This document shows positions 2,517-42,320 of a stretch of 42,320 nt of DNA, one piece after another (the stretch's first letter is position 1; each line of letters starts with the position of its first letter). Both the position numbers and the translations under genes were made by a program. Under the pieces are notes generated by a model. That model searched no databases. It saw nothing but the letters and a program-made list of their open reading frames with translations, and was not told the origin of the DNA. Source of the stretch: a virus; IMG/VR virus record IMGVR_UViG_3300031236_000995, positions 1 through 42,320 of that record; one strand, given 5' to 3'.

Positions 2517-2519
2517 GAC

Positions 2520-3422
2520 TTAGTCCCCCCGCACCGTGCGGAACGTCCGCACGGTGGACGGCTTGACGACGTAGCCCTTGCGCTCCGAGGTCTTCCACGT
2601 CGCTAGCCGCTTGCCGTCGAACGTGAGCTCCTCGCACTCGCCCATGTACGCGCAGATGCGGCCCTTGGTCGCGTCGAGTTCGCCCTCGGCGGTTTTTGTG
2701 TTCTGCGAGAGCACGACGAGCCTATCGAGGTCTTCGAGGATCTCCGGGGTCGCCTCGATCGCGGTGGCGACGGACTTCGGGAAGCGCGCTCGGGCGTCGG
2801 CGACGCTGGCGACGTCGGGCGCAACGCCGAGCTCGACGCAGCGCCAGAAGGCCGCCTCGAGGTCGACCAGGGTCGCGATCAGCTCCTCGTCGCGCGGGAT
2901 CGTGTAGATGCGCAACGTGTTCCCGCCGATCAGCGCGGCCAGGTCGAACGTCTCGTAGCCGGTGACGGCGAGGTAATGCTCGATCTGCAGGTGATAGGTC
3001 GACGGAATCTCGTCGATGCCCTCACCCCACTCGCCGAACTTGAACGCGAGCGCGTCGACGTTCTTGCACTCCAAGCCCCGACGCTCGCCGACAATTCGGC
3101 GGTCGAGGTTGGCGAGCATGAACGGGTGCTCGGCGCTACGCAGGATGCGGTTGACGCGGTGCACGCGTCGCCCGGTCCGCTGCGCGTACGCCTCCGCGAT
3201 CGCGTCTTCTAGACGCACGCCCCACTCCAAGCGCTCGGGGTTCTCCGGCTCGTCGTCGGGCGCTTCGCCGCGCTTTTCCAAGTAGAGCTGGTACTGCGTT
3301 TTGTACGGCGAGAGGCCGCACGCGACGGCCGCGTCGGAACCGCCGATACCCTTGCGACGCGCTTCGAGCCAGGCGGCTCGGCTGTCGATCTCCGTCTCGA
3401 GCGGTTGAATGGTCGAAGTCAT
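2520..3422 (-). CDS. YqaJ-type phage exonuclease
   Basis: 300 residues from ATG 3422, which overlaps the stop of the upstream gene (ATGA). Family signs of the YqaJ viral recombinases: AWLEARRKGIGGSDAAVACG with LSPYKTQYQLYLEK directly after it, EWGVRLEDAIAEAYAQRTGR, LANLDRRIVGERRGLECKN (active-site D and E-x-K) and YHLQIEHYLAVTGY (the Q residue). It would degrade one strand of linear duplex DNA and load the annealing protein encoded next to it. The C-terminal 80 residues are helical and may be the interaction tail. A longer frame up to 3665 is rejected because its extra part reads the preceding gene out of frame. Confidence 0.92.
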   Translation of the reverse strand: MTSTIQPLETEIDSRAAWLEARRKGIGGSDAAVACGLSPYKTQYQLYLEKRGEAPDDEPENPERLEWGVRLEDAIAEAYAQRTGRRVHRVNRILRSAEHPFMLANLDRRIVGERRGLECKNVDALAFKFGEWGEGIDEIPSTYHLQIEHYLAVTGYETFDLAALIGGNTLRIYTIPRDEELIATLVDLEAAFWRCVELGVAPDVASVADARARFPKSVATAIEATPEILEDLDRLVVLSQNTKTAEGELDATKGRICAYMGECEELTFDGKRLATWKTSERKGYVVKPSTVRTFRTVRGD

Positions 3423-3640
3423 GATGTCGCTCCCTCCGAAGCGGGCGCGCATGTCGGCGCGCAGGCGGCACAGTAGGGCTGTTTGTCGTTGAAGCGGCCG
3501 GCGTCCAGCAGCGTGAACGTCGTCAGGATGCGGTCGTTGATCAACTCGTCGAAGTCGACTTCGAGCGGGATGAGCTTGAGACAACCGTCGCCCGCGCAGC
3601 GCGTGAAGTGGCCGTGCGAATCGGTGCCGAGGAACATCAT
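3419..3640 (-). CDS. Small cysteine-motif phage protein, 73 aa
   Basis: Starts ATG 3640 and stops in overlap with the exonuclease start. Contains CAGDGC (about 16-21) and CAACAPTC near the C-terminus, a possible zinc-binding pair, with a middle EVDFDELINDRILTTF segment. No family recognised; the ATGA overlaps on both sides make it part of the early operon. Confidence 0.7.
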   Translation of the reverse strand: MMFLGTDSHGHFTRCAGDGCLKLIPLEVDFDELINDRILTTFTLLDAGRFNDKQPYCAACAPTCAPASEGATS

Positions 3641-3867
3641 GAGACGAGCTCGGTCCAGTCCGCACCGCTGCGGTCGAGCACGGTGCGCCCGCGCTGGTAC
3701 GCGAGCTCCGCGTCGATCTCAGGCCAGTAGGGTGGCTTGTAAAGGTCGCCGTGCTGCCTGGCGATCGCGCTGATGCAGTCGCTGGTCACGAAGAGCGAAC
3801 CGCGGCCGATGGCGACGATCTGCTCGCGCGTGAACGCGAGCGCCGCGGGCGCAACGACGGCACTCAT
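3637..3867 (-). CDS. Small phage protein, 76 aa, unknown
   Basis: Start ATG 3867 overlaps the upstream stop (ATGA); the stop overlaps the next start. The sequence has FTREQIVAIGRG, a Tyr/Pro-rich LYKPPYWPEIDAE centre and a charged tail. The upstream extension of this frame is low-complexity Arg-rich shadow and is left out. Function unknown. Confidence 0.65.
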   Translation of the reverse strand: MSAVVAPAALAFTREQIVAIGRGSLFVTSDCISAIARQHGDLYKPPYWPEIDAELAYQRGRTVLDRSGADWTELVS

Positions 3868-5740: not shown

Positions 5741-6076
5741 ATGCTGCGCTCGTTGACGGGGAGCGGTCGCGAACGCGACATCGACGATCAGCTCAAGCAA
5801 GCCGGGGCGCCAGACGAGCTACGAGCGGAAATCACGGCGAACTTCCGCGAACTCCGCGCATCTTTGCGCGACGCACAAATGGCGTTCCAAGCCGTCCTTG
5901 ACGCCAAGGCTGATGAGTCAACCAAACATGCCGTCGACGTGCGCAGGCTCGCCGAAACTGAGCTCGAACGCGAGCGTGCGCGAGGATGGGCGACGCTTTG
6001 GTGCGTCGTCGCGCTTACCGCGATCCTCACGCTGCTCGGCGTCCACGTCAGTTCCGAACCTTGGTGGCCGGTCTGA
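5741..6076 (+). CDS. Membrane-anchored coiled-coil protein, 111 aa
   Basis: ATG 5741 to a TGA that overlaps the integrase start (TGATG), so the two are coupled. Residues 12-85 are charged and helical, likely a coiled coil. A single hydrophobic segment (WATLWCVVALTAILTLLGVHV, about 82-102) lies near the C-terminus, giving a C-terminal membrane anchor. No family recognised. Its place in the lysogeny transcription unit suggests expression in the lysogen, where such proteins sometimes block superinfection; that role is only a guess. Confidence 0.65.
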   Translation: MLRSLTGSGRERDIDDQLKQAGAPDELRAEITANFRELRASLRDAQMAFQAVLDAKADESTKHAVDVRRLAETELERERARGWATLWCVVALTAILTLLGVHVSSEPWWPV

Positions 6077-7617
6077 TGCGCGTCGTCACCTACGCGCGCG
6101 TCTCGACGACCGCCCAGGGCGAGCGCGGCGCTTCCCTCGTCAACCAAAGCCGCAAGTTCGCTCTGTGGAAGGCCCGCGGCGGCCACGAGATCGTCGACTC
6201 CTACCAAGAGATGGAGTCCGCCAGCACCACCGTCCGACGCCGCCTGTTCTCCCGCATGCTCGAAGACCTCCCCGCCACCCGACCCGACTGCATCGTCATC
6301 GACTCGGCCGACCGGTTCAGCCGTAACCTCGAGGACACGTTCGAGGTCATCCGCCGCCTGCGCGAGCACGGGATCAATATCTGGCCCTTGGAGTGGGACC
6401 GCGACGATCCGCCCGACATCATCACCTACGACTCCCCCGATTACATCCGCTTCCGCGACGAGATCATCGCCGCTCAAGCCGAGGCCAAGCGCATCCGCGT
6501 GCGCCGCCAGCGCTCGATGCAAGGCCGGCGCGAGCGCGGCGCGACCCTCACGATGCGCGCCCCCTTCGGCCTGCAACGCGATCCCGCCGACCGCGATCGG
6601 CTCGCGCCGAGCCCCCAGGCCGGCATCGTCGCCGAGATCGACCGCCGCTACCTTGCGGGCGAGTCACCGCTGGCGATCCTGCGTTGGCTGGACTCCGAGG
6701 TACCCGGCGCCTGGAAGAGCCGTCCTGGCCTACGCAAGGCCCTCTTAAACCCGTCCTACGAGCTCGCCGGCGTCCGGTCCGCCCAGACGGCCGCGGCCAT
6801 CCGCGCGCTCCTGGCGACCCGCGAGACGCGCCACGGCCTCTACCGGCTGCACGACCACGAATTCACCGGCGTCTTCGCCTGCGGCCGGTGCGTCGCGATG
6901 GGCGTGGATCCCAAGAACGCGCTTATGGGGGAGCAGCTCGGCTACGGCCAGGCCGCTCAGCCGCCGCAGATGAACCTCGTCTGCCAGTCGGCCGGCAACA
7001 CCCTGGGGGCACGCCACCCGACCCTCTACATCCGCGTCTCGCGGATCGCCGGCGCCTGGGACCAGCTCTTGGCCGCGCTCGAGGTCGACCCCGCTGACGT
7101 CGACGCGCACGCGCGCCGCACGACCGCCGGCCAGGGCGATTCCAAGGTGCGCCGCCGGCGGCTCGAAAGAGCGCGCGCTCGACTCGATCAGGACGAGGCG
7201 GCCCTAGCGACGCGGCGTTCGCGCGCGCTGGACTTCCTCGCCGACGCCGAGCCGCGCGTCGTCGCGCAGGCCCGCAAGGCGCTCCTCGCGATCGACGCAG
7301 ACGAAGCGGAGCTCTACCTGCGCCGCGACGTCGTGCGCGGCGAACTCGCGCAGCTCGATCAGGCGGCCGCAACGATCGTGGACGTCGGCGCGGCGCTCGC
7401 GCGGTACCGCGAGCACTACGAACGTGCCAGCGTCCGCCAGCGCAACCTGCTCAACCGCGCGCTGTGCGCAGCCGTCGGCTCACACCCGATCGTCGCACGC
7501 GACGAAGATCACCGCTGGGGCACCGTCAGCGTCTCCTGGCCGGCGGTGATGACTGAACCGATCTTGGCGCCCTACCGAGCGTTCGCGCCGACGCTCAGCG
7601 CCGCGTGCGTCGTTTAG
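6076..7617 (+). CDS. int: Large serine recombinase (phage integrase)
   Basis: 513 residues from ATG 6076. The N-terminal resolvase domain (1-150) has TYARVSTTAQ with the nucleophile at Ser10, and DSADRFSRN further in. The recombinase domain follows (RAPFGLQRDP to NPSYELAGV, about 160-250), then a zinc-ribbon-like part with CGRC and one later Cys and His, then a long coiled-coil segment with many Arg and Ala (about 355-480). This order is that of large serine integrases, which join attP to attB without host factors. Its 3' end overlaps the convergent 7595-7831 gene by 23 bp. No attP could be identified nearby. Confidence 0.93.
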   Translation: MRVVTYARVSTTAQGERGASLVNQSRKFALWKARGGHEIVDSYQEMESASTTVRRRLFSRMLEDLPATRPDCIVIDSADRFSRNLEDTFEVIRRLREHGINIWPLEWDRDDPPDIITYDSPDYIRFRDEIIAAQAEAKRIRVRRQRSMQGRRERGATLTMRAPFGLQRDPADRDRLAPSPQAGIVAEIDRRYLAGESPLAILRWLDSEVPGAWKSRPGLRKALLNPSYELAGVRSAQTAAAIRALLATRETRHGLYRLHDHEFTGVFACGRCVAMGVDPKNALMGEQLGYGQAAQPPQMNLVCQSAGNTLGARHPTLYIRVSRIAGAWDQLLAALEVDPADVDAHARRTTAGQGDSKVRRRRLERARARLDQDEAALATRRSRALDFLADAEPRVVAQARKALLAIDADEAELYLRRDVVRGELAQLDQAAATIVDVGAALARYREHYERASVRQRNLLNRALCAAVGSHPIVARDEDHRWGTVSVSWPAVMTEPILAPYRAFAPTLSAACVV

Positions 7618-8773: not shown

Positions 8774-9022
8774 TTACTTCTCCTGCGGGCCCTGGCCCGC
8801 TGACTGAGGGGGGACGGCTTCGGTGCCGCCGTTTGGGGTGAGACGTGCGAGCACGAGCGCAGCAACGCTCCCGAGCAGAGCGAAGATCGTCGAGATCTTC
8901 ACCGGCCACGGATCGCTTGCGATCGAGTTGAGCATCTGCACGAACGCGGGGCTCGCGGCCCACTGTCCGATGGCGACGAACAGCACGAGCGCCGTCGCGA
9001 CGTCTTGCTGGTTGAGCTTCAT
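8774..9022 (-). CDS. Putative holin, 82 aa, two membrane spans
   Basis: ATG 9022 overlaps the endolysin stop (ATGA). Two hydrophobic helices, about residues 8-25 (VATALVLFVAIGQWAA) and 42-60 (KISTIFALLGSVAALVLARL), with a polar Pro/Gln-rich C-terminal tail. Size, two spans and the adjoining endolysin gene fit a class II holin, which would open the inner membrane at lysis time. No sequence family was recognised, so the call rests on topology and context. Confidence 0.7.
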   Translation of the reverse strand: MKLNQQDVATALVLFVAIGQWAASPAFVQMLNSIASDPWPVKISTIFALLGSVAALVLARLTPNGGTEAVPPQSAGQGPQEK

Positions 9023-9549
9023 GCGTGCGACTCCACGACGAACGCCTCGTAGCGCGAGAGGACGTCAGCGGCGTAGCCGTTGGTCGTCTGCGTGTCGGCG
9101 TCGACGCCCTCGAGCATCGCGAGCTGCACCTTTCCCCATCCGGCGTTGTAGCCAGCGGCCACGGCGAAGACGACCTGGCCTCGGCACGATGCAGCGAACT
9201 CGCCTGGCCGTTCGGTCTGCGCGCGCTGCGCGCTGACCAAGAGCGGCGCGAGGAAGAACACCGCCGCGACGTGCAGGTTCTCGCTTGGGACCAGGAGCGG
9301 GTACCCCTCGTACGTCGGATTCGTGATCGACGCCCACGAAACGCCGGCCGTGATCTGACACAGCCCGCAGCCGCAACCCGGTCCGGGCGCGACGCCGATC
9401 TGCAGGATGTTCCGGCCGCCAGTTTCGCGCGCCACGATCGCGGCGAGCAGGCACGGCGGAATCTGCGCAGCTTGCGCCGCAGCGTTGATCGGCGGCGCAA
9501 GCGCCCCGACGGCAGGGTTCGCCGAGGACTTGAATGCGACGAAGTCCAT
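9019..9549 (-). CDS. Endolysin, SLT-type lytic transglycosylase
   Basis: 176 residues without a signal peptide. The family core is visible: LLAAIVARETGGRN with the catalytic Glu at 42, the GLCQIT motif at 62-67 (usual form GLxQI), and the late AAGYNAGWGKV (usual A-x-Y-N-x-G) around 130-140. It would cut the glycan strands of peptidoglycan after the adjacent holin releases it. The start overlaps the stop of the upstream membrane protein gene (TGATG). Confidence 0.88.
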   Translation of the reverse strand: MDFVAFKSSANPAVGALAPPINAAAQAAQIPPCLLAAIVARETGGRNILQIGVAPGPGCGCGLCQITAGVSWASITNPTYEGYPLLVPSENLHVAAVFFLAPLLVSAQRAQTERPGEFAASCRGQVVFAVAAGYNAGWGKVQLAMLEGVDADTQTTNGYAADVLSRYEAFVVESHA

Positions 9550-9908
9550 CAGTGCGGACCCATGTGCAGCGCGCTCTCAACCGCGAGCGTCGCGACGGAA
9601 ACGAAGATCGCCCCGAGTAGCGCGATCACCCACGTAATGCCGCGACGGAACTGCGAGACGACGAGCAGGATGCCAGGACGCGGCTCACCATCCTCGGTGA
9701 CCGCGCCGACGATCGTGCCGTAGATCCAGTCGACCTTCTTGGCAACCGCCTCGTGCGCGACGGCGAGGGCGCTCTGCTGGCCTTTGACCTCTTGAACCGC
9801 GCTCGTCAACCTACCCAACGCCTCCACGGTGGCGAACTGCATACGGCCTTCGAGGGCATGACGCGACGCGCGTTCAAGGCTCTCCTCGTCATCATCTGAC
9901 CCCGGCAT
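9549..9908 (-). CDS. Small membrane protein of the lysis block, 119 aa
   Basis: ATG 9908 is chosen; a GTG at 9917 would add three residues and neither has a clear ribosome-binding site. An acidic start and a coiled-coil region (ATVEALGRLTSAVQEVKGQQ) are followed by a basic motif and one C-terminal span (GITWVIALLGAIFVSVATLAV, about 91-111). The layout resembles XhlA-type hemolysin/lysis accessory proteins, but only in outline. First protein-coding gene of the lysis unit, downstream of the late promoter near 10.0 kb. Confidence 0.65.
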   Translation of the reverse strand: MPGSDDDEESLERASRHALEGRMQFATVEALGRLTSAVQEVKGQQSALAVAHEAVAKKVDWIYGTIVGAVTEDGEPRPGILLVVSQFRRGITWVIALLGAIFVSVATLAVESALHMGPH

Positions 9909-9972
9909 GACCGGCACCCGAATCTAGGTCACAGCGCCCCGCGAGGGGCCATCCTCGCAGCCTCACGGGCCC

Positions 9973-10013
9973 ATGCTCGCGCGCTGGCAAGAACCGCGTG
10001 TGGGGGAATCCCC
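9973..10013 (-). promoter_or_regulatory. Late promoter copy 1 (palindrome + -10), lysis unit
   Basis: Minus strand GGGGATTCCCCCAC, palindrome centre at 10008, with hexamer GAGCAT at 9978-9973 starting exactly 30 nt downstream. Predicted +1 at 9966, which is the G of a GTG opening a 24-codon frame (9966-9892); that short frame may be a leader peptide or chance. The palindrome begins 6 bp after the stop codon of the upstream virion gene. Its -10 is the weakest of the four. Confidence 0.55.
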
Positions 10014-17144: not shown

Positions 17145-17591
17145 TCACCGCTCGCCTCCGATCGCGTACGTCACGCGCTCGGCGACCATACCGAGACACG
17201 CCATCACCGCGCGCATCGCCTCGTTGTCGCGGTCGACGGTCGCCACAAGCGGCAAGCCGTACGTTCGCGTGCCCTCGATGAGATAGCGGCCCAGCTCGAT
17301 CACCGCACGGCGCGAGCCGGCGATATGCACGACCTCGCGCACCGTCGCTGAGGTGTGCGGATCGAAGACGTCACGGTACGCGGCGACACCCACGGCGACC
17401 TCACGCTGCCACGCGATCAGCCAGCGGATGTTCGCGACCTCGTCGTGATCCGCGGTGCGCGGCGTCCCCCGCTGGCCCAGCGCCGCGATCTGCGGCGCGA
17501 GCGTCGGCAAGAGCCCCGCGATGTGCAGCGCGTCGATCAAGACCGCCGGGACTTCTTCGATGCCGCGATGCCGAGCGCAGTCAGCCACCAT
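17145..17591 (-). CDS. GNAT-like acetyltransferase of the virion cluster, 148 aa
   Basis: Starts at ATG 17591, predicted to be the first transcribed base (leaderless). The second half has the end of a GNAT fold: a strand VVHIAG, a helix RRAVIELGRYLIEG, then YGLPLVATVDRDNEAMRAVM and LGMVAERVTYAIGG, where the DN-x2-M-R part is typical of the GNAT region after the acetyl-CoA site. Similar small GNAT-like proteins lie among podophage head and tail genes. The substrate is unknown, and the protein may be structural rather than active. Confidence 0.7.
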   Translation of the reverse strand: MVADCARHRGIEEVPAVLIDALHIAGLLPTLAPQIAALGQRGTPRTADHDEVANIRWLIAWQREVAVGVAAYRDVFDPHTSATVREVVHIAGSRRAVIELGRYLIEGTRTYGLPLVATVDRDNEAMRAVMACLGMVAERVTYAIGGER

Positions 17592-17597
17592 GCGCCC

Positions 17598-17638
17598 ACC
17601 CTACGGAGCGCAAGCGCCCCGGAAGTGGGGGAATCCCC
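17598..17638 (-). promoter_or_regulatory. Late promoter copy 2 (palindrome + TAGGGT)
   Basis: GGGGATTCCCCCAC on the minus strand, centre 17633; hexamer TAGGGT at 17603-17598, again 30 nt from the centre; then 6 bp to ATG 17591, the predicted +1. No -35 hexamer occupies the normal position, so the palindrome at -42 may replace it. A hairpin GGGGCG-CTTG-CGCTCC lies between palindrome and -10. On the plus strand the flank CAGGCGCT after the palindrome is shared with copy 1. Confidence 0.7.
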
Positions 17639-20214: not shown

Positions 20215-21830
20215 CGGCGTAGCGTCTCCTCTGCTTCGATGTAATACGCGAGCTCCACGATCTCGTAGGCCGAGGTCGCGGACGACTCGCTGATTTGGAA
20301 CTGAAAGTTTCGCCCGCGCAGGGAAGGCTCGATCGGGGCGGATGAGCTCTGGTACTGCGTCGAGATGAGCGGACCGACTTGGGCGATTCCGACCACCGCC
20401 GTGCCGACCACGGCCGGGATCCCCGTGACGGCGTCGACGACTTGCGTCGTGGCCGACGTCGAAAGCTGGTCGGTCACGACTTCGATCACAAACGTCGCCG
20501 ACGTGCTCTCGACGTTGAGATAGAGCTGGCCGACGTTCTTGATCGTCTCGTCGTTGCCACCCGTGTCGCGACCCGTCTGCACGACGACGTCGATCGGCGT
20601 CGTCCCGACGTCCGCCGTCGGGCTGCCACCCAAGAGCGCCGCCGACCCAGCAAGGCCGCTGCCGATGTAGAGCAGCTTCAAGTCGCCAGGGCCACCCCAG
20701 GGGACGAGCGCGCCAACGGTGAGGCCCGCCCACTTCGTCCACGCCGGCTTCCCAGCGAACTGCGTCGCGTCGTCGTCGTAGACGCAGATCTCGTCGGCGG
20801 CGCCGTCCCCGCTGTCCACCGCGCACAAGTAGACCCCGGTGTAGCTCTGATAGCCGCCCGCGGTCTGCACGAGAAAGTCCCCGGCGACCGAGCGCATTAA
20901 GGACTGGTTGCCCTGCGCGATCAGCGCCGTCGACTGCAAGAGCGGCAGCCCGATGTTGATCGCCTCGAGCGCATTGGGAAAGAGGCGGTAGAAGCTCTGG
21001 CCGTTCCAGAAGACCAGCGTCCCGCGCACCACGGCAACGCTGTGCGGCGCGGTCGTGCCGGCGTCGCTCAACCACGGCGCAAGCTGGAACTGATAGTCGC
21101 CGGCGTAGAAATCGTAGCCCGCCATCGCGTAGACCGAGCTCGTCTTGAAGACTGCAAGCGTCGGCCCGAGCGGCACGCACACCTGCACGGTCGGATCGCC
21201 GTCGCCCTGGCCGATCAGATAGCCGCCGTACGACGTCGAGAAGACGTAGCTCTCCGGGTTCCCCAAGTCCGTCGCGAAGACAGTGTCAGGGTTGTTCGGA
21301 TCGCCCCACAAGAAGACGTGGTTGTGCCAGAAACAGCAGCCCGTAAAGTGATTGGCGATCGACGAGTTGAGCTGCGTGAGATGCGTCCCGTCCCATTTCA
21401 TCGGCGGTCCCGAGCCGTACGCGATGATCAGGATGTCCGACGCCGGCGTGCCGGAAACGCCGCTCTCGGCCGGATCGTAGGCCGCAGCGAAGAACGCCGG
21501 GGTCGCCCCGGCGGCCAGCGTGCCGATGTTCGTGCACACGCCGGTGATGTCGTTGCCGACCCACAGGTTGCCATCGGCGGTCTGCAGGATCATCTGCTTG
21601 AGCGCCGATGGCTGCGCGCGATACCAGCGCACACCCGAGACGATCGGCGAGCTGCTGAACTGCGCGCCGTACGACGACGTCCCCGTGCGCTTGCCGACCG
21701 CGCCGAAGCGCCGGTAGACAACGTTCTGCGCCATCACCAGGCCCGGATTGCGCGAGGGCGAGAGCGACTCGTCGAGCAGCCCAGAGAACTGCCGCCGTGC
21801 GTACCGCTTGCCGCGCTGGAGGTCCCCCAC
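20211..21830 (-). CDS. Beta-propeller tail protein (P22 gp10-like), 539 aa
   Basis: The N-terminus YARRQFSGLLDESLSPSRNPG with LVMAQNVVYRRFGAVGKRTG, then repeated blades of the type SGVRWYRAQP, QMILQTADGNLWVG, ILIIAYGSGPPMKWDG, GTLVFWNGQSFYRLFPN and YDDDATQFAGKPAWTKWAG mark the beta-propeller proteins that cap the P22-type portal/tail. It would bind the adaptor and hold the packaged DNA, or carry the tailspikes. Its TGA overlaps the tailspike GTG, and its start overlaps the end of the adaptor gene. Confidence 0.75.
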   Translation of the reverse strand: MGDLQRGKRYARRQFSGLLDESLSPSRNPGLVMAQNVVYRRFGAVGKRTGTSSYGAQFSSSPIVSGVRWYRAQPSALKQMILQTADGNLWVGNDITGVCTNIGTLAAGATPAFFAAAYDPAESGVSGTPASDILIIAYGSGPPMKWDGTHLTQLNSSIANHFTGCCFWHNHVFLWGDPNNPDTVFATDLGNPESYVFSTSYGGYLIGQGDGDPTVQVCVPLGPTLAVFKTSSVYAMAGYDFYAGDYQFQLAPWLSDAGTTAPHSVAVVRGTLVFWNGQSFYRLFPNALEAINIGLPLLQSTALIAQGNQSLMRSVAGDFLVQTAGGYQSYTGVYLCAVDSGDGAADEICVYDDDATQFAGKPAWTKWAGLTVGALVPWGGPGDLKLLYIGSGLAGSAALLGGSPTADVGTTPIDVVVQTGRDTGGNDETIKNVGQLYLNVESTSATFVIEVVTDQLSTSATTQVVDAVTGIPAVVGTAVVGIAQVGPLISTQYQSSSAPIEPSLRGRNFQFQISESSATSAYEIVELAYYIEAEETLRR

Positions 21831-22921
21831 TACCCGACGATCCCATCTGCGTAGTTGACGTCGACGTCCTCGCCCGCGAGCGTCGGCTGCGTCGAACGAT
21901 CGTTATCGAAGACGTACTGCTTGCCCAGGCGCACGAGCCGATCGAACTTCCCCTCGTACGCTTTCGCCTGCGCCAGATCGCCCTTGCGCAGCCAATAGTC
22001 CGACAGGCACCCGTACGCCGGTGCCATGTTGAACTGCGCGGGGATCCCCGGCATATCCGTCGGGTTGACCAGGATCGATCCGAGCGATTCGAAGTAGATC
22101 GTGATCTCGTCGGGCACGCCACCGCCGGCCAGCGCCGTCGCGATCGTCGGCGAGATTTGCAGCGTGCTGCCGGTCACGGTCCCGTACGCGGTGATCGCGT
22201 TGCCGCCCGTACCCGTCGCGAGCGACGTGAGCTGCACGGTAGGCCCGTCCAGCGGCACCGTCGCCGTGGCGAGGAACGCCTGCGCCCCGCTCACCGCGCT
22301 CGACGCGTTGATCGCCGCCGCCAGCGCCGTCGCGATCGACGCGAGGGTGTCCGTCGAAAGCACGGTGTACGGGGTCGTCGTGACGTTGAGCGCTCCGTAC
22401 GCCAGCGTCGCCGTGACCTGGTTGCCCGCCGTCGGCGTACCCGAGAGCGTGAGCGTCGCGAGCGCCTGCCCAGCGTTCCCCGGGCCCGGCTGCGGCTGCA
22501 TCCGGATCAGGCCGCCGAACGGCTGGCGGTAGTAGTACGGCTGGCCCGTCGCCGGCGGCACGATGCCACCCGTCGTCGAGTCGAACTCATCGAACGACTT
22601 GCCGACCAGCGTGTACGGATACTGGCCGGCGGGCGTGTACTCGACGCGCACGAGCGACGCGCAGTTCGCCGGCAACGCGAAGTCCAGACCCGCGACGATC
22701 GGCTCGGTCTGCACGACGTCGGTCATCGCCGGGGCCATCCCGGTCAGACCGATATACATCCCAAGCCAGATATTCAGATCCCGCGTGAGCGTCGTCGCAG
22801 GGAAGTCACCCGTCGTCGGGATGACGGCGACCCCGGTCGTATCCGGCCCCGGCTCGAAGAGCAGGTGCAGGATACGACACTGCAGGTCGTAGAGCGACAT
22901 CGCGCCCGGCGTGGTCGCCAC
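21830..22921 (-). CDS. Head-to-tail adaptor, gp4-like, with inserted domain, 363 aa
   Basis: The two ends match the P22 gp4-type adaptor outline: N-terminal helices MSLYDLQCRILHLLFEPG and TRDLNIWLGMYIGLTG, and C-terminal YGCLSDYWLRKGDLAQAKAY with EGKFDRLVRLG. Between about 160 and 290 lies an inserted Thr/Ala-rich domain (TLSGTPTAGNQVTATLAYG, DTLASIATALAAAINAS) of a type I recall from phage structural proteins with immunoglobulin-like or similar add-ons. The protein would sit under the portal. Placement directly upstream of the propeller gene fits. Confidence 0.7.
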   Translation of the reverse strand: MATTPGAMSLYDLQCRILHLLFEPGPDTTGVAVIPTTGDFPATTLTRDLNIWLGMYIGLTGMAPAMTDVVQTEPIVAGLDFALPANCASLVRVEYTPAGQYPYTLVGKSFDEFDSTTGGIVPPATGQPYYYRQPFGGLIRMQPQPGPGNAGQALATLTLSGTPTAGNQVTATLAYGALNVTTTPYTVLSTDTLASIATALAAAINASSAVSGAQAFLATATVPLDGPTVQLTSLATGTGGNAITAYGTVTGSTLQISPTIATALAGGGVPDEITIYFESLGSILVNPTDMPGIPAQFNMAPAYGCLSDYWLRKGDLAQAKAYEGKFDRLVRLGKQYVFDNDRSTQPTLAGEDVDVNYADGIVG

Positions 22922-27859: not shown

Positions 27860-27900
27860 ACAGTAGGAGCGACGACCAAATCGCCCGTGGGGGAATCCCC
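27860..27900 (-). promoter_or_regulatory. Late promoter copy 3 (palindrome + TACTGT), coat unit
   Basis: Minus strand GGGGATTCCCCCAC, centre 27895; hexamer TACTGT at 27865-27860, 30 nt from the centre; predicted +1 at 27853. It begins about 10 bp downstream of the intrinsic terminator, so it restarts transcription for the scaffold and coat genes. Confidence 0.65.
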
Positions 27901-31502: not shown

Positions 31503-31543
31503 ACTCTGGCGGTCCGTAAGATCGCGAATGTGGGGGAATCCCC
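31503..31543 (-). promoter_or_regulatory. Late promoter copy 4 (palindrome + CAGAGT), portal unit
   Basis: Minus strand GGGGATTCCCCCAC, centre 31538; hexamer CAGAGT at 31508-31503, 30 nt from the centre; six bases later comes the GTG at 31496. The palindrome lies about 13 bp after the terminase stop codon. Confidence 0.65.
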
Positions 31544-31556
31544 AAGGGCACGACCG

Positions 31557-33422
31557 TCATCGCATCCACCCCAAGGCTTCCTCGGCGCCGCCCTCGTCCG
31601 CGTCGCGAATCCAGCCCAGACCGTCCTCCTCGAACGGATCGAACGGGACGTCGCCCGCATCGTCACCGCCGAACTCGGGCACCTCGATCGCGTCGGCTTG
31701 CTCTTGCGATCGCCCGGCGTAGATGCGCAGCAGAACGCACAGGATCTCAAGAGCGCTCACCGTGTCGTCGTGTCGGCCCGCCGCGCCGCCGTAATCACCC
31801 GGATCGCCAAAGCCGCGCTGCTCGCGGTACGTGCTCATCTCCAAGATCGTGGTCGCGTCGGGGACGTCGATCATATCGCGCTCGATCATGCGCCGCGTCC
31901 AGTCGACCATCAGCGGCTTGGTCTTCGCGTTCGACTCCCAGCCGATGCCCTTGGTGCGCGGGAAGCCGTGCGTGCCCGGCTGCCGATAGCGGTACAGATT
32001 CGGATAGAGATTCTTCTGATCGATGTAGGTGCACATCGTGACGCCGGGGCCCGTCCACTCCGGCGCGAGCATCGGCATCTCGACTTCGTCGCCGACGCGA
32101 ATCGCCATCAGCCACGAGAGGGCGCTTGCGACCTCGGCGAACAGCACGGGGTTGAGGTGGCCGCGCCAGGTCATGATCAACTCGTCGCGGTCCCACGGCT
32201 TGAGCACGCCGACCTGGATGACCGAGAAGTCGCCGTCCTCGGTGTCGGGATTGCCCCGGCCGACGTCGCAGGCGAGGAAGACCCGCTCGCCGTTGACGGG
32301 CCAGCGGTAGACCTTCAGGCTCTTGAGCGACCCGGAGTTGACGTGCGACTTGAACCCGCGCGAACGTGCTTCGCCCGGGGTGAGGAACTGCGGCCGGCGG
32401 ACGACGTCGTGCGGCGCGGCGTTCTCGTTCTTCGCATCCGACTCGCCCCAGTAGATATCGCCCTCGGCGAGCGGGTGACGCTTCTTCGCAGCGAGCCGCT
32501 TGATGTGCTTGCGGCCGAAGACGACGGTACCCGAGGTCAAGAACGCCGTCTCCAGATCAGTCGGGTACTCCTGATCGAAAAGGTCCTCGTCGCGGTTGAA
32601 CGTTGGCCCCGCGAGCATCATGCGGCGCCAGTTGAACTGCTCGAGCGTGATCGCCGGATACAGGCGCAGCAAGTCCTTCTCTTGCTGCGTGAGCGACAGC
32701 TCGAACGCGTGCCGCTTCTCCGGCGCGATCGGGATGGCGAACGAGAGCGTCATCTCGTGCCAGGGCAGGAAGAGCAACCGCGTGACGCCGTACTCGCCGG
32801 CGCGCGACGAGCGCGACGCGGCATCCATGCACTGCTGATGGAAGAACGCACCCGGGCCCGTCTGACCGTTCGGCGTCGACTCCATGTAGAGCGCCGAGTG
32901 CGGGTCGGTCGAGAGCGTCGGGTAGAGCGAGCGAAAGAGCTCGTGGCCGTCCTTGTACCGGCTGACCTCGGTCGCGTGGATGTTCTGGAAGCCGTAGCCC
33001 AGGTACGCGTCGATCGAGCGTGCCGTCGCGACGTAGATCCGCGAGTCGAGCGGCGAGTCGAACTCGATGCGGTCCTTGGGCGGGTTGTTGCGGTAGACCG
33101 CAGGGAGCTGCGGCCGCAGCCGAATGGGCTCGCGCCCAATCGAGGCCGCGACGTCGGGCGGCACGAGCCACTCGGGCGTGTGCGCCCAGAAGCGCCGGCA
33201 CATATCCAGGACGTTTTCGCTGGGGTTCTTCTCGTTGGCGACGATCAGCGACCACGTGTTCGCGTGCTGCGTGGTGTCGTCGTAGATGATCGCCTCGACG
33301 CCCGTTGAAATGCCCGCGCGCCTCGCCTTGCAGATGACGACGCGCACGGGCAGATGCTTGGCACCGAACCACTGGTGCAGGCGGTAGAGCTTGAGCTGCG
33401 CCTCGTTGAAACGCAGCGGCAC
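31557..33422 (-). CDS. terL: Terminase large subunit, start uncertain
   Basis: 621 residues from GTG 33422. The Walker A-like KARRAGIST is at 32-40, followed by IVANEKNPSENVLDMCRRFW, YGFQNIHATEVSRYKDG (Walker B region), LYMESTPNGQTG (motif III), and in the nuclease half LACDVGRGNPDTEDGDFSVI and RHDDTVSALEIL with the metal-binding Asp residues. It cuts and pumps DNA into the head. The frame stays open upstream to about 33543 and there encodes FRIENQFRIKVKRG, which looks like the conserved piece before VPLRFNEAQ, but has no ATG, GTG or TTG. A coupled GTG at the small-gene stop (33545) opens another frame for seven codons. A frameshift is likely; see findings. Confidence 0.88.
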   Translation of the reverse strand: MPLRFNEAQLKLYRLHQWFGAKHLPVRVVICKARRAGISTGVEAIIYDDTTQHANTWSLIVANEKNPSENVLDMCRRFWAHTPEWLVPPDVAASIGREPIRLRPQLPAVYRNNPPKDRIEFDSPLDSRIYVATARSIDAYLGYGFQNIHATEVSRYKDGHELFRSLYPTLSTDPHSALYMESTPNGQTGPGAFFHQQCMDAASRSSRAGEYGVTRLLFLPWHEMTLSFAIPIAPEKRHAFELSLTQQEKDLLRLYPAITLEQFNWRRMMLAGPTFNRDEDLFDQEYPTDLETAFLTSGTVVFGRKHIKRLAAKKRHPLAEGDIYWGESDAKNENAAPHDVVRRPQFLTPGEARSRGFKSHVNSGSLKSLKVYRWPVNGERVFLACDVGRGNPDTEDGDFSVIQVGVLKPWDRDELIMTWRGHLNPVLFAEVASALSWLMAIRVGDEVEMPMLAPEWTGPGVTMCTYIDQKNLYPNLYRYRQPGTHGFPRTKGIGWESNAKTKPLMVDWTRRMIERDMIDVPDATTILEMSTYREQRGFGDPGDYGGAAGRHDDTVSALEILCVLLRIYAGRSQEQADAIEVPEFGGDDAGDVPFDPFEEDGLGWIRDADEGGAEEALGWMR

Positions 33423-33543: not shown

Positions 33544-33762
33544 TCACTTCAGCGCCGGCATGACGGCCATCTCAAACTCGCGCTGAAGTAGCTTCGCTGC
33601 GGCCTGGCGCGCGGCCTGAACGACGTCGTCCGGCTCAGTGGCGACAACGTCGGTTGCGGCGCGCAGCACCTCGGCGTACCTGTCCTCGGCAAGGGACGCG
33701 CGCTCCCACGCAGTGAGTCCGGCGGTCTTGCCGCGTGGTTTAGAAGGAGCTTTCGTCGCCAT
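33544..33762 (-). CDS. Small basic/helical protein upstream of terminase, 72 aa
   Basis: ATG 33762 rather than the longer Arg-rich frame. Lys/Pro-rich start (ATKAPSKPRGKTAG) and two helices (LTAWERASLAEDRYAEVLRA and VVQAARQAAAKLLQREFEMA). Place directly before the large terminase gene and size suggest a role in DNA recognition or packaging; not enough to call a small terminase. Confidence 0.6.
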   Translation of the reverse strand: MATKAPSKPRGKTAGLTAWERASLAEDRYAEVLRAATDVVATEPDDVVQAARQAAAKLLQREFEMAVMPALK

Positions 33763-33946
33763 CGTCTTCTTCCGGTGCGAATCCGGCCGACGCCGCATCG
33801 GCCGTCGCTGCGATCGCGTGCAGCTTCTCGGAGTTGATCGCCTCCTTGCTGAGCTCGGCGTCGGCCAGCTCGAGCGCCCTCATGTAGACGCTGCGCGAAC
33901 GCTCGGCGATCTGCTTGTCGTTGTAGGTCCGGACTTCCACGGTCAC
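33740..33946 (-). CDS. Small helical protein, 68 aa
   Basis: GTG 33946 overlaps the stop of the LuxR-type gene (GTGA) and overlaps the next gene by 23 bp. Helix-rich (YNDKQIAERSRSVYMRALEL, ADAELSKEAINSEKLHAIAA) with an acidic tail EEDDGDESSF. Unknown; possibly part of the packaging set. Confidence 0.6.
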   Translation of the reverse strand: MTVEVRTYNDKQIAERSRSVYMRALELADAELSKEAINSEKLHAIAATADAASAGFAPEEDDGDESSF

Positions 33947-34320
33947 TCCTCGGCTTTGACGTCCGCGATGAACGCGGAGGGGTTGATAATCCCGAGCGCC
34001 ACTGCGATGACGCAGAGGTTCGCTCGGTTCATGGCGTTGAGCCGGCGCGACAGCCGGTTGACGGCGTGCTCGACTTGCTTGGGCGTCACGCTCAGCTCAG
34101 CCGCGATCTCGACGTCGCGGAAGCCCGCGGCGATCCGCTCCAGCACGGTGCGATGCAGGTCGTCCAGCAGCGCGTAGTCATCCGAGAAGAGCACGTGGTA
34201 GGCGTCGCAGTCGGTGCAGAACGTGATCTTGCACCGCAGGCGAAGGTACTTCATGACGCGCCGCTTGCCCGCCTCAGCCTCGTCCTTCGCGTACGCCGTG
34301 ACGACGCACTTAGTCGTCAT
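33943..34320 (-). CDS. LuxR-type HTH phage regulator, 125 aa (candidate late activator)
   Basis: ATG 34320. Residues 22-52 form a small domain with CTDC (35-38), which may bind metal. Residues 55-110 match the LuxR/GerE helix-turn-helix: LHRTVLERIAAGFRDVEIAA, ELSVTPKQVEHAVNRLSRR and LNAMNRANLCVIAVALGI. No receiver or autoinducer domain is present, so it is a stand-alone DNA-binding unit. LuxR-type activators commonly bind a palindrome centred near -42, which is where the GGGGATTCCCC element lies in four late promoters of this phage. Acting as the late switch is my inference; a role as small terminase is the main alternative. Confidence 0.75.
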   Translation of the reverse strand: MTTKCVVTAYAKDEAEAGKRRVMKYLRLRCKITFCTDCDAYHVLFSDDYALLDDLHRTVLERIAAGFRDVEIAAELSVTPKQVEHAVNRLSRRLNAMNRANLCVIAVALGIINPSAFIADVKAEE

Positions 34321-34945
34321 CAGCAACCACGTTCTCCGGGAGGTCTTCAGCAACGTCGATCGGCGTCGGAGCGCCAGGCTCGTAGCCGAGCAGGTCCAGC
34401 CCGTTCGTCCCGCCGCCACCCTCGATCGCGGCCTGCCCGGCGCGCGCGCGGTCTTGCTCGCCGAACATTTGCCACACGTTCACCGTGCGCTTGTCGACGT
34501 TGAACGTGGAGTCGGGGGTCTTCTGCCAGCCCAGCGTCCGCGCGAGCGTACCGAACGCGCGCGTCGCGTTCTCGTCCGTCCCGTGCAAGGCTATCTGCAC
34601 CTGGCGCGCGATCATGGCGAGGCGCTGACCCTCGAAGTCCTCGAGGTTTGCCGTCATCTTCGCCCGCACGCCCTCGGTATCGAAGACCAGCTTCGCCATG
34701 TTGCGCAGGTCGATGATGGAGCGGTCCTTGGTGTCGAACCCGAGCTGGCGCAGCGCGGCGTACATATCGCCCGTGTGGACGAAGAGCGCGCGCACGGCGA
34801 GCGCGTCGCGCACGTCCTGCGCGAGCGTGAGGAACGTCGCGTCGGGATCCGGGTTGAGCTCCATCTCTAGACGCTCGCGCAAGGCGGCGTTGGCGACGCG
34901 CAGCTCCTCGATCTCGGCCCTGCGGCCCGGTCTAGCGGCCAACAC
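34310..34945 (-). CDS. Phage protein, 211 aa; possible small terminase
   Basis: GTG 34945 overlaps the upstream gene by 14 bp; the frame further up is shadow. A short coiled coil (RRAEIEELRVANAALRERLE) leads into a helical domain (FLTLAQDVRDALAVRALFVH, MYAALRQLGFDTKDRSIIDL, LAMIARQVQIALHGTDENAT, RAFGTLARTLGWQ) and a C-terminal tail ending with acidic residues. Coiled coil plus helical domain and a place three genes above the large terminase would suit a small terminase, but no motif confirms it. Confidence 0.6.
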   Translation of the reverse strand: MLAARPGRRAEIEELRVANAALRERLEMELNPDPDATFLTLAQDVRDALAVRALFVHTGDMYAALRQLGFDTKDRSIIDLRNMAKLVFDTEGVRAKMTANLEDFEGQRLAMIARQVQIALHGTDENATRAFGTLARTLGWQKTPDSTFNVDKRTVNVWQMFGEQDRARAGQAAIEGGGGTNGLDLLGYEPGAPTPIDVAEDLPENVVADDD

Positions 34946-35345
34946 TGCTCTCGCGATACATCCCGCCCTCGGGGATGGGCGTCGTCTCCTCGATCCCCTC
35001 GTTGCCCAAGGTCGTGTACTCGGCGTCCTTACCGCGCCGGCCGAGCACGCGCTCCTCCAGGAGCAGCGCCGCGAGCTCGTCGTCGGTCGGCGGGACGAAC
35101 GGTGCGCGCGAGCGGGCGCGCTCGTCGCGCTCCTCGTCGAGTGCCTGCGCGGCGTCGTCGGCGGCGGCCGCGACGTTCGCCTGCACGCCCTGGTAGCGGG
35201 CTTGGTGCAGCGCGCCGACGGCCTCAGCCCAAACGCGCGCACCGTGCGCGAGCACCCACACCCCGCCGATGAACAGCACGGCGAAGATGACCAGCGCAGC
35301 GCCGCCGACGGCGATGCCGACGGCTACGGGGACGGCGGGCGACAT
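34932..35345 (-). CDS. Single-span membrane protein, 137 aa
   Basis: ATG 35345. One long hydrophobic segment near the N-terminus (VAVGIAVGGAALVIFAVLFI then GGVWVLAHGA, about 6-36), then a charged helical cytoplasmic part (QGVQANVAAAADDAAQALDE, FVPPTDDELAALLLEERVLG). No family recognised. Confidence 0.65.
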   Translation of the reverse strand: MSPAVPVAVGIAVGGAALVIFAVLFIGGVWVLAHGARVWAEAVGALHQARYQGVQANVAAAADDAAQALDEERDERARSRAPFVPPTDDELAALLLEERVLGRRGKDAEYTTLGNEGIEETTPIPEGGMYRESSVGR

Positions 35346-38196: not shown

Positions 38197-38384
38197 GGCG
38201 CCGGCGGCTTTCGCAGCAAGTCGTCGGCGTTGAACGCCGGCAACGCGGGGACGCCCGTCCCGCCAGGCGTGAGCTGCGTGAAGAGCGCGGTCAAGTCCCG
38301 CCGATCCCATGGGCCGCCACCGGGCGCCGCCTGGTCGCGCGGATCGTCGCTGGGCTCGAAAGCCGCCGCCTCGTCGGCGCTCAC
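38193..38384 (-). CDS. Small Pro/Asp-rich phage protein, 63 aa
   Basis: GTG 38384 overlaps the stop of the RyR-domain gene (GTGA). Mostly disordered; ends LTALFTQLTPGGTGVPALPA then FNADDLLRKPPAP. Unknown. Confidence 0.55.
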   Translation of the reverse strand: MSADEAAAFEPSDDPRDQAAPGGGPWDRRDLTALFTQLTPGGTGVPALPAFNADDLLRKPPAP

Positions 38385-38797
38385 GCCGGCGTTTCCGTCC
38401 CGAGCAGCGCGCGCACGACGGCGATGTAGAGCGAATCTTTCGCTTGCTGATCCGGCGGCAGCCGCTCGTACGGCACGAAGCAGGGGTGCTGCTTGGCCGC
38501 CGCGTCCTTGACCGACCCATAGGTCCAGCCGTCGCGCTCCTTCTCGGCTAGCCAGCTCCCGTGTGAGTCGGCCGGGGTCGCGTCGGGATGCTCGCGTAAA
38601 AAGCGCACGCCGGCGATCGCGCTCTGTACTTGCCACGTCGGCGCCTCGAACCAGGGCGGCTGCGAGTCGTCACCGATGGTCCAGCAGTACGCGCGGTTCG
38701 CCTCATGCGCGACGTGGGCGATCCGCGTGTCGGCGATCTCCCTCGAATCCGCGGTGGTGCTGCGCGCCTCCACCTGTCCGACTTGCTCGTCGCTCAT
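38381..38797 (-). CDS. Phage RyR-domain protein, 138 aa
   Basis: ATG 38797. The RyR (ryanodine receptor repeat-like) signature is clear: IAHVAHEANRAYCWTIGDDS (26-45), QPPWFEAPTWQVQSAIAGVR, SHGSWLAEKERDGWTYGSVK (78-97) and HPCFVPYERLP (104-114). Bacterial and phage RyR domains are single small domains thought to bind nucleotide-derived ligands; the ligand is unknown. It may sense or bind signalling nucleotides during infection. The overlap with both neighbours places it in the 40.5 kb operon. Confidence 0.85.
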   Translation of the reverse strand: MSDEQVGQVEARSTTADSREIADTRIAHVAHEANRAYCWTIGDDSQPPWFEAPTWQVQSAIAGVRFLREHPDATPADSHGSWLAEKERDGWTYGSVKDAAAKQHPCFVPYERLPPDQQAKDSLYIAVVRALLGTETPA

Positions 38798-39261: not shown

Positions 39262-39930
39262 TCAGTTCGATCTCGCATCTCGTGGTCGCGAGGCATTGGG
39301 TTCGGCCGCATCCCCGCCGGTCGGGGTCGCGCGTTCGCCCGCGGGCTCGGCCGGTCGTCGCTGCGGCTCGTGGGTGAGGTGGTGCCAGCCGCAGCGCGGG
39401 CACCAGTACGCGCGCTGTTCGAGTGGTCCGGCGTGGCGCTGCGTGTCGCGCTGCTGCTGAATGACGACCAGCGCCCGCTGCGCGCGCTCGGCAGACGGGT
39501 AGCGCACCTTCCAGCACGGGTACTCCGGCGAGCGCCCCAGCCGGCTGGACCAGACGGAGGACGCCGCGCGAGCGGGCTTGCGGCTCACGCATCGGCACCG
39601 CGGACCTGAGGCCGGCTGCACGACCGACGCCACGCCAAGGCTGCACCGACCACGACCCCGACGACCACCGGCAGAACGGTCGCGCGCGCGCACTTGCGCA
39701 CGGCCTGAGACGACCACCGGCGGGAAAAGAGACTCTTGGTTCGGTCGCTGTTCGGGCTGGCGTCGCCCGCCGACCGAACCCGCGGCGTCGGCGTCCCTGA
39801 ACGCAACGCGGCGCAGCCACACCACGACCTCTAGTGGTGGCGGCGCGCCGCATGCGCCGGCGATGAGGGCGTCGTACAGCACGGAAGCGGCCGCACTGCG
39901 GGTCGCTGGGCTGCGGACGTCGCCGCTCAC
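39262..39930 (-). CDS. Zinc-ribbon phage protein, up to 222 aa (may be two genes)
   Basis: GTG 39930 overlaps the upstream stop (GTGA) and the frame stays open for 222 residues. The last 108 look most genuine: YPCWKVRYPSAERAQRALVV, then RAYWCPRCGWHHLTHEP, a pattern of small phage zinc-ribbon proteins with the Cys/His cluster next to a conserved Tyr. A GTG at 39588 would give only that part and overlaps the stop of a nested 38-codon membrane-peptide frame (39585-39701, with VLPVVVGVVVGAALAW). The middle of the long version is Arg/Gly-rich, so two smaller genes are possible. Confidence 0.55.
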   Translation of the reverse strand: MSGDVRSPATRSAAASVLYDALIAGACGAPPPLEVVVWLRRVAFRDADAAGSVGGRRQPEQRPNQESLFPPVVVSGRAQVRARDRSAGGRRGRGRCSLGVASVVQPASGPRCRCVSRKPARAASSVWSSRLGRSPEYPCWKVRYPSAERAQRALVVIQQQRDTQRHAGPLEQRAYWCPRCGWHHLTHEPQRRPAEPAGERATPTGGDAAEPNASRPRDARSN

Positions 39931-40481
39931 GCTGGCGTACCGCTGGGCGGGGCGGCGACCTTGGCGGCCGCGGTGGGGTCGGTCCAGCCTACGGCTGCGC
40001 CCTGCGCAGATGCTCGGGCAAGCGGAACCCCATCCCTACCCTTCCCCGTGATGGGGAGGCCGGGTGCTGACGACGGCTGGGCGCCGTGGTCGTCGCGGCC
40101 GCCTTCCGGTCGTGCCGGTGCGCGGGACGCCGCTCGATCGCCACCGCCCGGATGGGCGTCCTCCGCGTCGCGGACGGTGCAGCGGGGTCGAGACTGGACC
40201 CCGACGGTACCGCGGCCGCAATCGGCGACTGCTGGGAGTTCCCCCGCGATCTTCAGGTCGCGCTTGGCCTCGCAGATCGGGCACAAGACGGCCCGGGTCG
40301 TTGGACCGCCGCAGTCGCTACAAGGCCGAAACTGCGGGGGAACGGCTCGATTCCGGGCCCCAGGACGCGTTCTGGCTCGATCGGATGACCTGGGATACCC
40401 GGGGATCGGCGTGGCGAGGCCGGCAGCGTCGAAGGTGCGCGCTGCTGGTGGAGACGGTGGGGAATCCCCCGCTTTCGCCAT
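39927..40481 (-). CDS. First gene of the 40.5 kb operon; zinc-ribbon protein, 184 aa
   Basis: ATG 40481 lies 9 bp after the TAGGGT -10, so the transcript should have almost no leader. The middle holds PQFRPCSDCGGPTTRAVLCP then ICEAKRDLKIAGE, a C-x2-C ... C-x2-C ribbon (about 53-70); both ends are Pro/Ala/Gly-rich and disordered. The GGGGATTCCCC palindrome lies inside codons 5-8. Similar ribbons occur in small phage DNA-binding proteins. An opposing frame on the plus strand over this region is judged to be shadow. Confidence 0.6.
   Translation of the reverse strand: MAKAGDSPPSPPAARTFDAAGLATPIPGYPRSSDRARTRPGARNRAVPPQFRPCSDCGGPTTRAVLCPICEAKRDLKIAGELPAVADCGRGTVGVQSRPRCTVRDAEDAHPGGGDRAASRAPARPEGGRDDHGAQPSSAPGLPITGKGRDGVPLARASAQGAAVGWTDPTAAAKVAAPPSGTPA
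40459..40469. promoter_or_regulatory. Fifth copy of the GGGGATTCCCC palindrome
   Basis: Exact 11-bp core, same orientation as the other four, but flanked by GTG on the plus side as GTGGGGAATCCCCC. No -10-like hexamer lies at the 30-nt spacing (minus strand reads CTTCGA there). It lies about 20 nt downstream of the predicted start of the 40.5 kb promoter, a position suited to blocking rather than activating transcription. Confidence 0.55.
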
Positions 40482-40490
40482 GCCGCGAGT

Positions 40491-40520
40491 ACCCTACCGG
40501 ACGACCGCCCGTCCCGTCAA
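40491..40520 (-). promoter_or_regulatory. Promoter TTGACG-N18-TAGGGT of the 40.5 kb operon
   Basis: Minus strand TTGACG (40520-40515), 18-bp spacer, TAGGGT (40496-40491). The spacer contains a 5-bp inverted repeat GGACG/CGTCC (40499-40503 with 40510-40514). Downstream, ACTCGCGGCATGG is identical to the sequence at the early promoter's start codon (5020-5008), which ties the two promoters together. Confidence 0.7.
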
Positions 40521-41420: not shown

Positions 41421-42320
41421 TCACTTCCGTTTCAGCGCTTCCAGCTCTTCAAGCGTGCGAGGCCAGTCGCGACCTAAGAGGCGCGACAAGCTGCGGTCGG
41501 CGAGGAGCTTGCCGTCCGTTTGGCAGCGGGCGCAATAGTTGGTCTCGTTGTCGGCGTAGCGGATGCGCTGGATCGGCTCGCCGCAACGGGGACAGGGCTG
41601 TCCGTACCGACCGTGCACGACCATGTCTTTGCGGAAGGCGGTGACCTTCTCGGGGAAGGCGGCGTCCGCTTCGCTGCCGAGACGATCGATCCACTCCTGG
41701 AGGACGCTGCGCGTCGCGGCGAACAGCCGCTCCCACTCAGGCGGCGTGAGCCTGTGGGTGAGCGCGATCGGCGAGAGCTGCGCCGCGTGCAGGATCTCAT
41801 CGGAGTAGGCGTTGCCGATACCGCTCAGGATCCGCGGATCGGTCAGCGCGCGTTTGAGCGTGGGGTTCTCCCGCATCAAGGCGGCGCGAAACGTATCGAG
41901 GTCGGCCGAGAAGACGTCGATGCCGCCGGGGTCGAGCGACCGCAGGTCCGCTTCGCCGGCGATGAGGTGCAAGGACGCGCGGCGCTTCGTGCCGGCTTCG
42001 GTGACGACGAGCGACCCGTTGGGGAAGTCGAAGGCGGCCAGCTGTTGCCGCCCGGCCAGCATCGCGCCGGGCGGCTTCCAATGCAGCCGGCCGGCGATCA
42101 TCAGGTGCAGCACGAGCCACAGGTCGCCGTCGAGTCCGATCGCGATGCGCTTGCCGACGCGGCGCAGCTCGCGCACCCTCCGGCCTTCGACCGCCGTCAG
42201 GGGCGGCTGCGCGGTTCGCAGCAGAAACGGGTTCGCCAGCCGGACGCGTTCGAGCGGCTGGCCGACGATACGGGGCTCCAGCGCACGGAGGTACGCGGCG
42301 ACGTCCGGCAGTTCGGGCAC
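41421..42320 (-). CDS. Fpg-family DNA glycosylase, 299 aa
   Basis: GTG 42320 gives MPELPDV, the invariant start in which Pro2 is the nucleophile and Glu3 the helper. Lys57 (VGKRIAIGL) matches the conserved beta-hairpin lysine, LHLMIAGRLHW is the void-filling region, and RILSGIGNAYSDEILHAAQL is the helix-two-turn-helix. The C-terminal zinc finger has CPRC and CARC 16 residues apart. It would remove oxidised purines and related lesions and cut the strand. HLMIAGRL differs from the E. coli Fpg form, so a Fpg/Nei variant with altered lesion choice is possible. Complete, with the start at the window edge. Confidence 0.92.
   Translation of the reverse strand: MPELPDVAAYLRALEPRIVGQPLERVRLANPFLLRTAQPPLTAVEGRRVRELRRVGKRIAIGLDGDLWLVLHLMIAGRLHWKPPGAMLAGRQQLAAFDFPNGSLVVTEAGTKRRASLHLIAGEADLRSLDPGGIDVFSADLDTFRAALMRENPTLKRALTDPRILSGIGNAYSDEILHAAQLSPIALTHRLTPPEWERLFAATRSVLQEWIDRLGSEADAAFPEKVTAFRKDMVVHGRYGQPCPRCGEPIQRIRYADNETNYCARCQTDGKLLADRSLSRLLGRDWPRTLEELEALKRK

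Follow-up and report, generated by a model that had tools for sequence, protein, structure and literature searches.

The window, that is the whole stretch of 42,320 nucleotides that was analysed, codes on its minus strand for a protein of 125 residues with a LuxR-type helix-turn-helix (HTH), whose gene lies between a small-terminase-like gene and the large terminase gene. The open reading frame is real and its translation begins MTTKC; the plus-strand reading of the same positions does not give the LuxR protein. The genes and promoter that define the locus are as follows.

40492-40520, minus strand: sigma-70-type promoter TTGACG-N17-TAGGGT, assigned from the sequence
34310-35242, minus strand: small-terminase-like (TerS-like) gene, start uncertain
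33943-34320, minus strand: LuxR-HTH protein of 125 residues, proposed late-gene activator (open reading frame, Pfam, AlphaFold2 model, fold match)
33740-33940, minus strand: gene of 66 residues directly after the activator gene, kept in some relatives
31557-33422, minus strand: large terminase (TerL; phrog_2, E 7e-16)

The 3' end of the TerS-like gene overlaps the start of the activator gene. The name of the TerS-like gene is uncertain, being given by position and sequence character, and its product has no family match in a search of PHROGs and Pfam-type profiles. The activator gene had been assigned to an operon starting at 40.5 kb, upstream of the terminase. Its place downstream of the promoter at 40492-40520 and ahead of the terminase agrees with this, while the unity of the operon is deduced from the orientation and spacing of the genes. 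The transcript with the activator gene on it probably starts from that promoter.

The window also holds features outside this locus. The presence of a serine recombinase together with RecT and YqaJ recombination genes indicates that the phage is probably temperate.

7-272: 16 copies (≤1 mismatch) of CCTGGTCGCGTCCC in a 12-bp tandem array at the left end of the record; 0.06 expected by chance
1413-3665, minus strand: RecT and YqaJ recombination genes
5986-7617, plus strand: serine recombinase, among the few plus-strand genes
21830-22921, minus strand: weak tail-sheath match (phrog_165, E 2.8e-6); the portal of this phage is of P22 type
38381-38797, minus strand: RyR domain (PF02026, E 5.7e-10) in a small phage protein
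40953-41029, plus strand: tRNA-Ile (GAT), on the strand opposite to the genes
41421-42320, minus strand: Fpg/Nei-type DNA glycosylase (PF01149, PF06831, zf-FPG), running to the end of the record

The activator protein is divided into two parts, the second of which includes the recognition helix.

34177-34320, minus strand: N-terminal module, residues 1-48, with C5, C35, C38 and H42 (model pLDDT 85)
33985-34170, minus strand: LuxR/GerE HTH domain, residues 51-112
34042-34083, minus strand: recognition helix, residues 80-93, the least conserved stretch tested

The Pfam family GerE is matched over residues 57-106 (E 4.2e-7) with 29.9 bits, above the curated cut-off of 23.5 bits, and is found in 9/13 homologues (E 0.01). 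The AlphaFold2 model, built from a 13-row alignment, has a pLDDT of 88.3 and a pTM of 0.78. Residues 46-114 of this model superpose on 6jqs (Z 12.0, rmsd 1.1 over 67 residues) and on GerE itself, 1fse (Z 11.8, rmsd 0.9 over 64 residues), and fold comparison gives the model the four-helix GerE fold including the C-terminal helix. Because the Pfam match exceeds its cut-off and the predicted model matches GerE-type domains, the first-pass annotation of a LuxR/GerE HTH in a 125-residue product, which did not state the minus strand, is correct at the level of profile and model. Compared by itself with the PDB, the N-terminal module gives no clear match (best Z 4.6). Its residues C5, C35 and H42 are kept in 15/15 homologues and C38 in 14/15, a conservation that suggests a zinc site with these four residues as likely ligands. 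Note that the product of another window gene, 39262-39930 on the minus strand (PHROGs 3424, 14788 and 16009; coding status of its first half doubtful), ends in a C-...-CPRCGWHH module that weakly resembles this N-terminal module (hhalign probability 27, E 6.5e-4).

The palindrome GGGGATTCCCC is present in five exact copies, all on the minus (coding) strand, at 10003, 17628, 27890, 31533 and 40459; no copies were found in 100 dinucleotide shuffles. All but the copy at 40459 extend to GGGGATTCCCCCAC-N21-NANNNT (0/100 shuffles). At these four promoters 30 nt separate the palindrome centre from the start of the -10 hexamer downstream of it, which places the centre at about -42, as had been claimed for four late promoters. 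A centre near -42 is the class II activator position. No -35 hexamer is found at the four promoters.

31503-31543, minus strand: late promoter 1, element 31530-31543, -10 CAGAGT; precedes the pre-portal gene and the portal gene
27860-27900, minus strand: late promoter 2, element and -10 TACTGT; precedes the gene in the scaffold position and the major capsid gene
17598-17638, minus strand: late promoter 3, element and -10 TAGGGT; precedes gene 17145-17591
9973-10013, minus strand: late promoter 4, element and -10 GAGCAT; precedes genes 9549-9917 and 9019-9549
40459-40469, minus strand: fifth exact palindrome, within the first codons of open reading frame 39927-40481

Gene 9019-9549 has a weak SLT match, and a lysis role for it is queried. 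The fifth palindrome lies at about +21 of the early promoter at 40.5 kb. It is outside any activator position and counts against the activator reading; it is possibly an autoregulatory site. No counterpart was seen in the relatives: all other element copies (≤1 mismatch) are at late sites except one in the portal gene of L114.

Relatives are viral contigs recruited through terminase and portal sequences and their alignments. The group is uncultured as far as the collection searched goes, a tblastn search with the portal against 50,697 records of cultured phages having given no match. A LuxR homologue is coded immediately ahead of the large terminase gene in 16/16 phages whose contig covers that stretch (13/13 in the first set plus L167, L171 and L176), and the TerS-like gene precedes it in 14/16, not being detected in L152 and L153. 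Phage G012 has, in addition, another LuxR-HTH gene on the opposite strand (L176:2411-2842, minus strand, E 4e-8). When 41 listed window proteins were compared with seven relatives, those common to G003, G004, G005, G007 and G009 came from the packaging and structural region only: the TerS-like protein, the LuxR protein, TerL, the pre-portal protein, the portal, the major capsid protein and the products of the two genes just after the capsid gene. The LuxR protein is the only one of these with a recognised regulator domain, in a comparison that could miss strongly diverged small regulators. In cultured phages the LuxR queries matched nothing beyond weakly similar HTHs, which came from phages of Vibrio, Pseudomonas and Agrobacterium and from a tail gene of one Flyfo siphovirus; they were rejected as the same system on account of differing gene contexts in the three examined. 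The metagenome-assembled genome containing L156 was also rejected as a relative: it has the portal, no TerL match, and LuxR matches that look bacterial.

The element of each relative was sought, phage by phage, as a word shared between the terminase-portal gap and the portal-capsid gap. Such a phage-specific word is present in 12/17 phages compared, or 12/15 with complete gaps. The first set gave it in 10/14 loci, window included (0/60 mononucleotide shuffles each), and the second set adds L148 and G012 (0/200 dinucleotide shuffles each). The elements of the relatives are listed by contig and, where assigned, phage.

L114: GGGCTTTTCCC
L115: CCGTGATTTTACGG
L116: CCCTCAACTTTCAGAGG
L118: CCTGTATATwGTCAGG
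L113/G004: CTCCAGGATTCTGGAG
L119/G003: GGTCCTAAGTrTTCCAGAG
L150/G009: CCCCCTTTTTGGGGG
L145: CGGTAGATTCCCG
L153: CGCAAAAATTTGCG
L148: CGAGTAAATCTACTCG
G012: GTATTTTTAC

In L148 the gap contains a tRNA-like insert and the element was found using a longer region; the tRNA-like sequence itself, seen by eye, lies between the terminase and the first late promoter (L148:6740-6870). No significant shared element was found in L117/G001, L152 and L171, which have complete gaps and the LuxR gene and so count against the activator reading, nor in L109 and L167, whose portal gaps are incomplete; L122 was too short for the comparison. By eye, and outside the count, a weak pair of GTnAAwwTTTAC can be made out in L152, and GGGGCGCCCC in a single gap of L117.

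In each relative the element recurs at two or three promoters, which are homologous between the phages. In G003, G004 and G009 a third copy precedes the homologue of window gene 17145-17591, as in the window, this gene and its promoter having been kept together. A NANNNT hexamer starts 29-32 nt from the element centre in 28/29 late sites of 12 phages, while other four-wide offset windows have a mean of 3.6 and a maximum of 10 of 29. The form NANNNT was derived from the window sites, which makes the count in the relatives (24/25) the fairer one. In G003 the three sites are not clearly symmetrical, and a centre was assigned to them after the spacing was known; without them the count is 25/26. 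L152 was excluded from this count. The best match to a -35 hexamer in the 29 sites is 4/6, in two of them.

Each element belongs to its own phage. A search of eleven elements against eleven genomes (≤1 mismatch) gave 2-5 copies at home, including five in the window, with that at 40459, and three in L114, with the one inside the portal gene; 3/110 foreign cells were non-zero, and in none of the ten other genomes is the window element used repeatedly. Exact GGGGATTCCCCCAC is found in 101 stretches of the viral collection, nearly all with a single copy, and among the matches listed two copies occur only in L006, which is the same phage as the window. This search had suggested that gene and element fail to co-occur, a conclusion overturned once the relatives' own elements were found. 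A de novo search for palindromes over whole genomes was abandoned, swamped by GC-rich palindromes of coding regions. The co-occurrence of gene family and element proposed in the first-pass annotation stands for the gene (16/16) and fails for GGGGATTCCCC as a sequence common to the relatives, each of the 12/17 phages with a shared word having its private element. Phages having the element and lacking the gene were not seen where the stretch was covered; the rule has to be reworded, the relatives having the gene with a different element.

The divergence of the elements has a parallel in the protein family. Mean pairwise identity is 0.16 in the recognition helix (80-93), about 0.25 in helices 54-64 and 69-76, and 0.45 in the C-terminal stretch 94-112, which makes the dimer contact in LuxR proteins. 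The low conservation of the recognition helix fits what would be expected if the operator changes and the architecture stays. Mantel tests of element similarity against similarity of the LuxR HTH (r 0.09, p 0.25) or of the recognition helix (r 0.01, p 0.46) were not significant, nor was partial Mantel co-divergence. Since LuxR identity is near 27% and the elements resemble each other little, these tests have low power, and their negative outcome is probably due to saturation on both sides.

We consider it quite probable that the LuxR-HTH protein is the class II late-gene activator of these phages, with a private operator in each. The link between protein and element, first made from the window alone, is supported by position, fold, promoter geometry and comparative evidence, the main new support being the homologue at the same locus in 16/16 phages and the own element at homologous late promoters in 12/17. 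Gene, modelled fold, conserved place, elements, homologous positions and spacing can be read from the sequences; the model built on them has further steps. The activator would be made from the early or middle operon together with the terminase genes, before the late genes. A dimer would bind the phage-specific inverted repeat through the LuxR HTH, centred at about -42, at three or four late promoters that have a -10 and no -35. Since the promoters are of this type, it would recruit the host housekeeping RNA polymerase by contact in the class II mode. Recognition helix and palindrome would have diverged across the family while promoter sites and spacing stayed fixed, which argues for one private activator-operator pair per phage. 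A more tentative extension is that at least a dozen mutually orthogonal pairs operate on one promoter frame, that fast evolution of the helix blocks cross-activation by co-infecting or resident relatives, and that the window phage has an autoregulatory site in its early operon.

That the LuxR protein, and not another phage protein, pairs with the element is what we infer from this evidence. It is unlikely that the elements are bound by the TerS-like neighbour or by an unrecognised small regulator, the LuxR protein then doing something else. At this locus the TerS-like protein is conserved almost to the same degree, such proteins bind DNA, and the co-divergence test gave no link between LuxR and the element; yet the fixed distance from element to -10 at several promoters is the geometry of a transcription factor, and the LuxR protein alone among the shared proteins has a recognised regulator domain.

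Two other roles for the LuxR protein itself are less probable still. A sigma-like factor reading the element as an unusual -35 would account for the match of phrog_3282, the closest family in PHROGs and annotated "sigma factor", to 9/13 members (best E 1.7e-9) and for weak Sigma70_r4 matches in one or two. We regard it as very improbable: GerE is matched in 9/13 members, the modelled fold is of GerE type with the LuxR C-terminal helix, and a dimer, rather than region 4, is the likely reader of an inverted repeat with its centre at -42. The sigma-70 combination of regions 2 and 4 is not found either, the protein having one HTH (51-112) after a Cys/His N-terminus, no region 2 match and, at 125 residues, too short a chain for region 2. 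Little credence can likewise be given to a repressor for which the palindromes are operators keeping the late promoters off. The fifth copy, downstream of the early promoter start, is in a repressor-like place, but the late promoters lack a -35 and need help, not repression, and their sites keep a tight spacing with the centre at -42.

As a class II activator the protein would be the likely late-gene switch of a phage group without a cultured member in the collection searched, and one part of a regulator-operator pair whose recognition sequence varies between phages on promoters of constant position and spacing. The group offers a case for decoding the specificity of LuxR-type HTHs and candidates for ready-made orthogonal activators.

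Activators of the LuxR/NarL/GerE type are typically dimers on an inverted repeat, often near -42. The window protein shares the HTH fold of bacterial GerE, VraR, RhlR and TraR (Z 10-12 over about 62-67 residues); it differs from the bacterial proteins in having no receiver or ligand domain and a 48-residue Cys/His module instead. The Ogr/Delta proteins of P2-like phages are zinc-finger late activators that act from a dyad near -55 and are not known to have a LuxR HTH. The likeness to them, a small Cys-containing phage protein acting on several late promoters with an upstream dyad, is one of general description. A literature search, with subscription papers mostly outside its reach, found no LuxR-HTH late activator of phages; in the papers that it did find, phage LuxR proteins are quorum-sensing receptors, which sense host autoinducers (PMC6456758). 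These are also phage-encoded and have a LuxR HTH, while the window protein has no ligand-binding domain. The 13 NCBIfam families listed for the window protein include no RinA or ArpU model, and neither do the 25 listed out of 36 for the set. The Ltr/RinA/ArpU regulators of phages of Gram-positive bacteria, such as Ltr of Staphylococcus aureus phage Phi13, follow the same logic with other protein families; Ltr/RinA-type regulators are described as proteins of about 130 residues whose gene closes the early cluster and directly precedes their promoter (PMC13123087). Compared with Ltr, the window protein has a LuxR HTH and a Cys/His module, its terminase gene lies upstream of the first late promoter, and several promoters carry its site, an inverted repeat, where that of Ltr consists of direct repeats at one promoter (PMC13123087).
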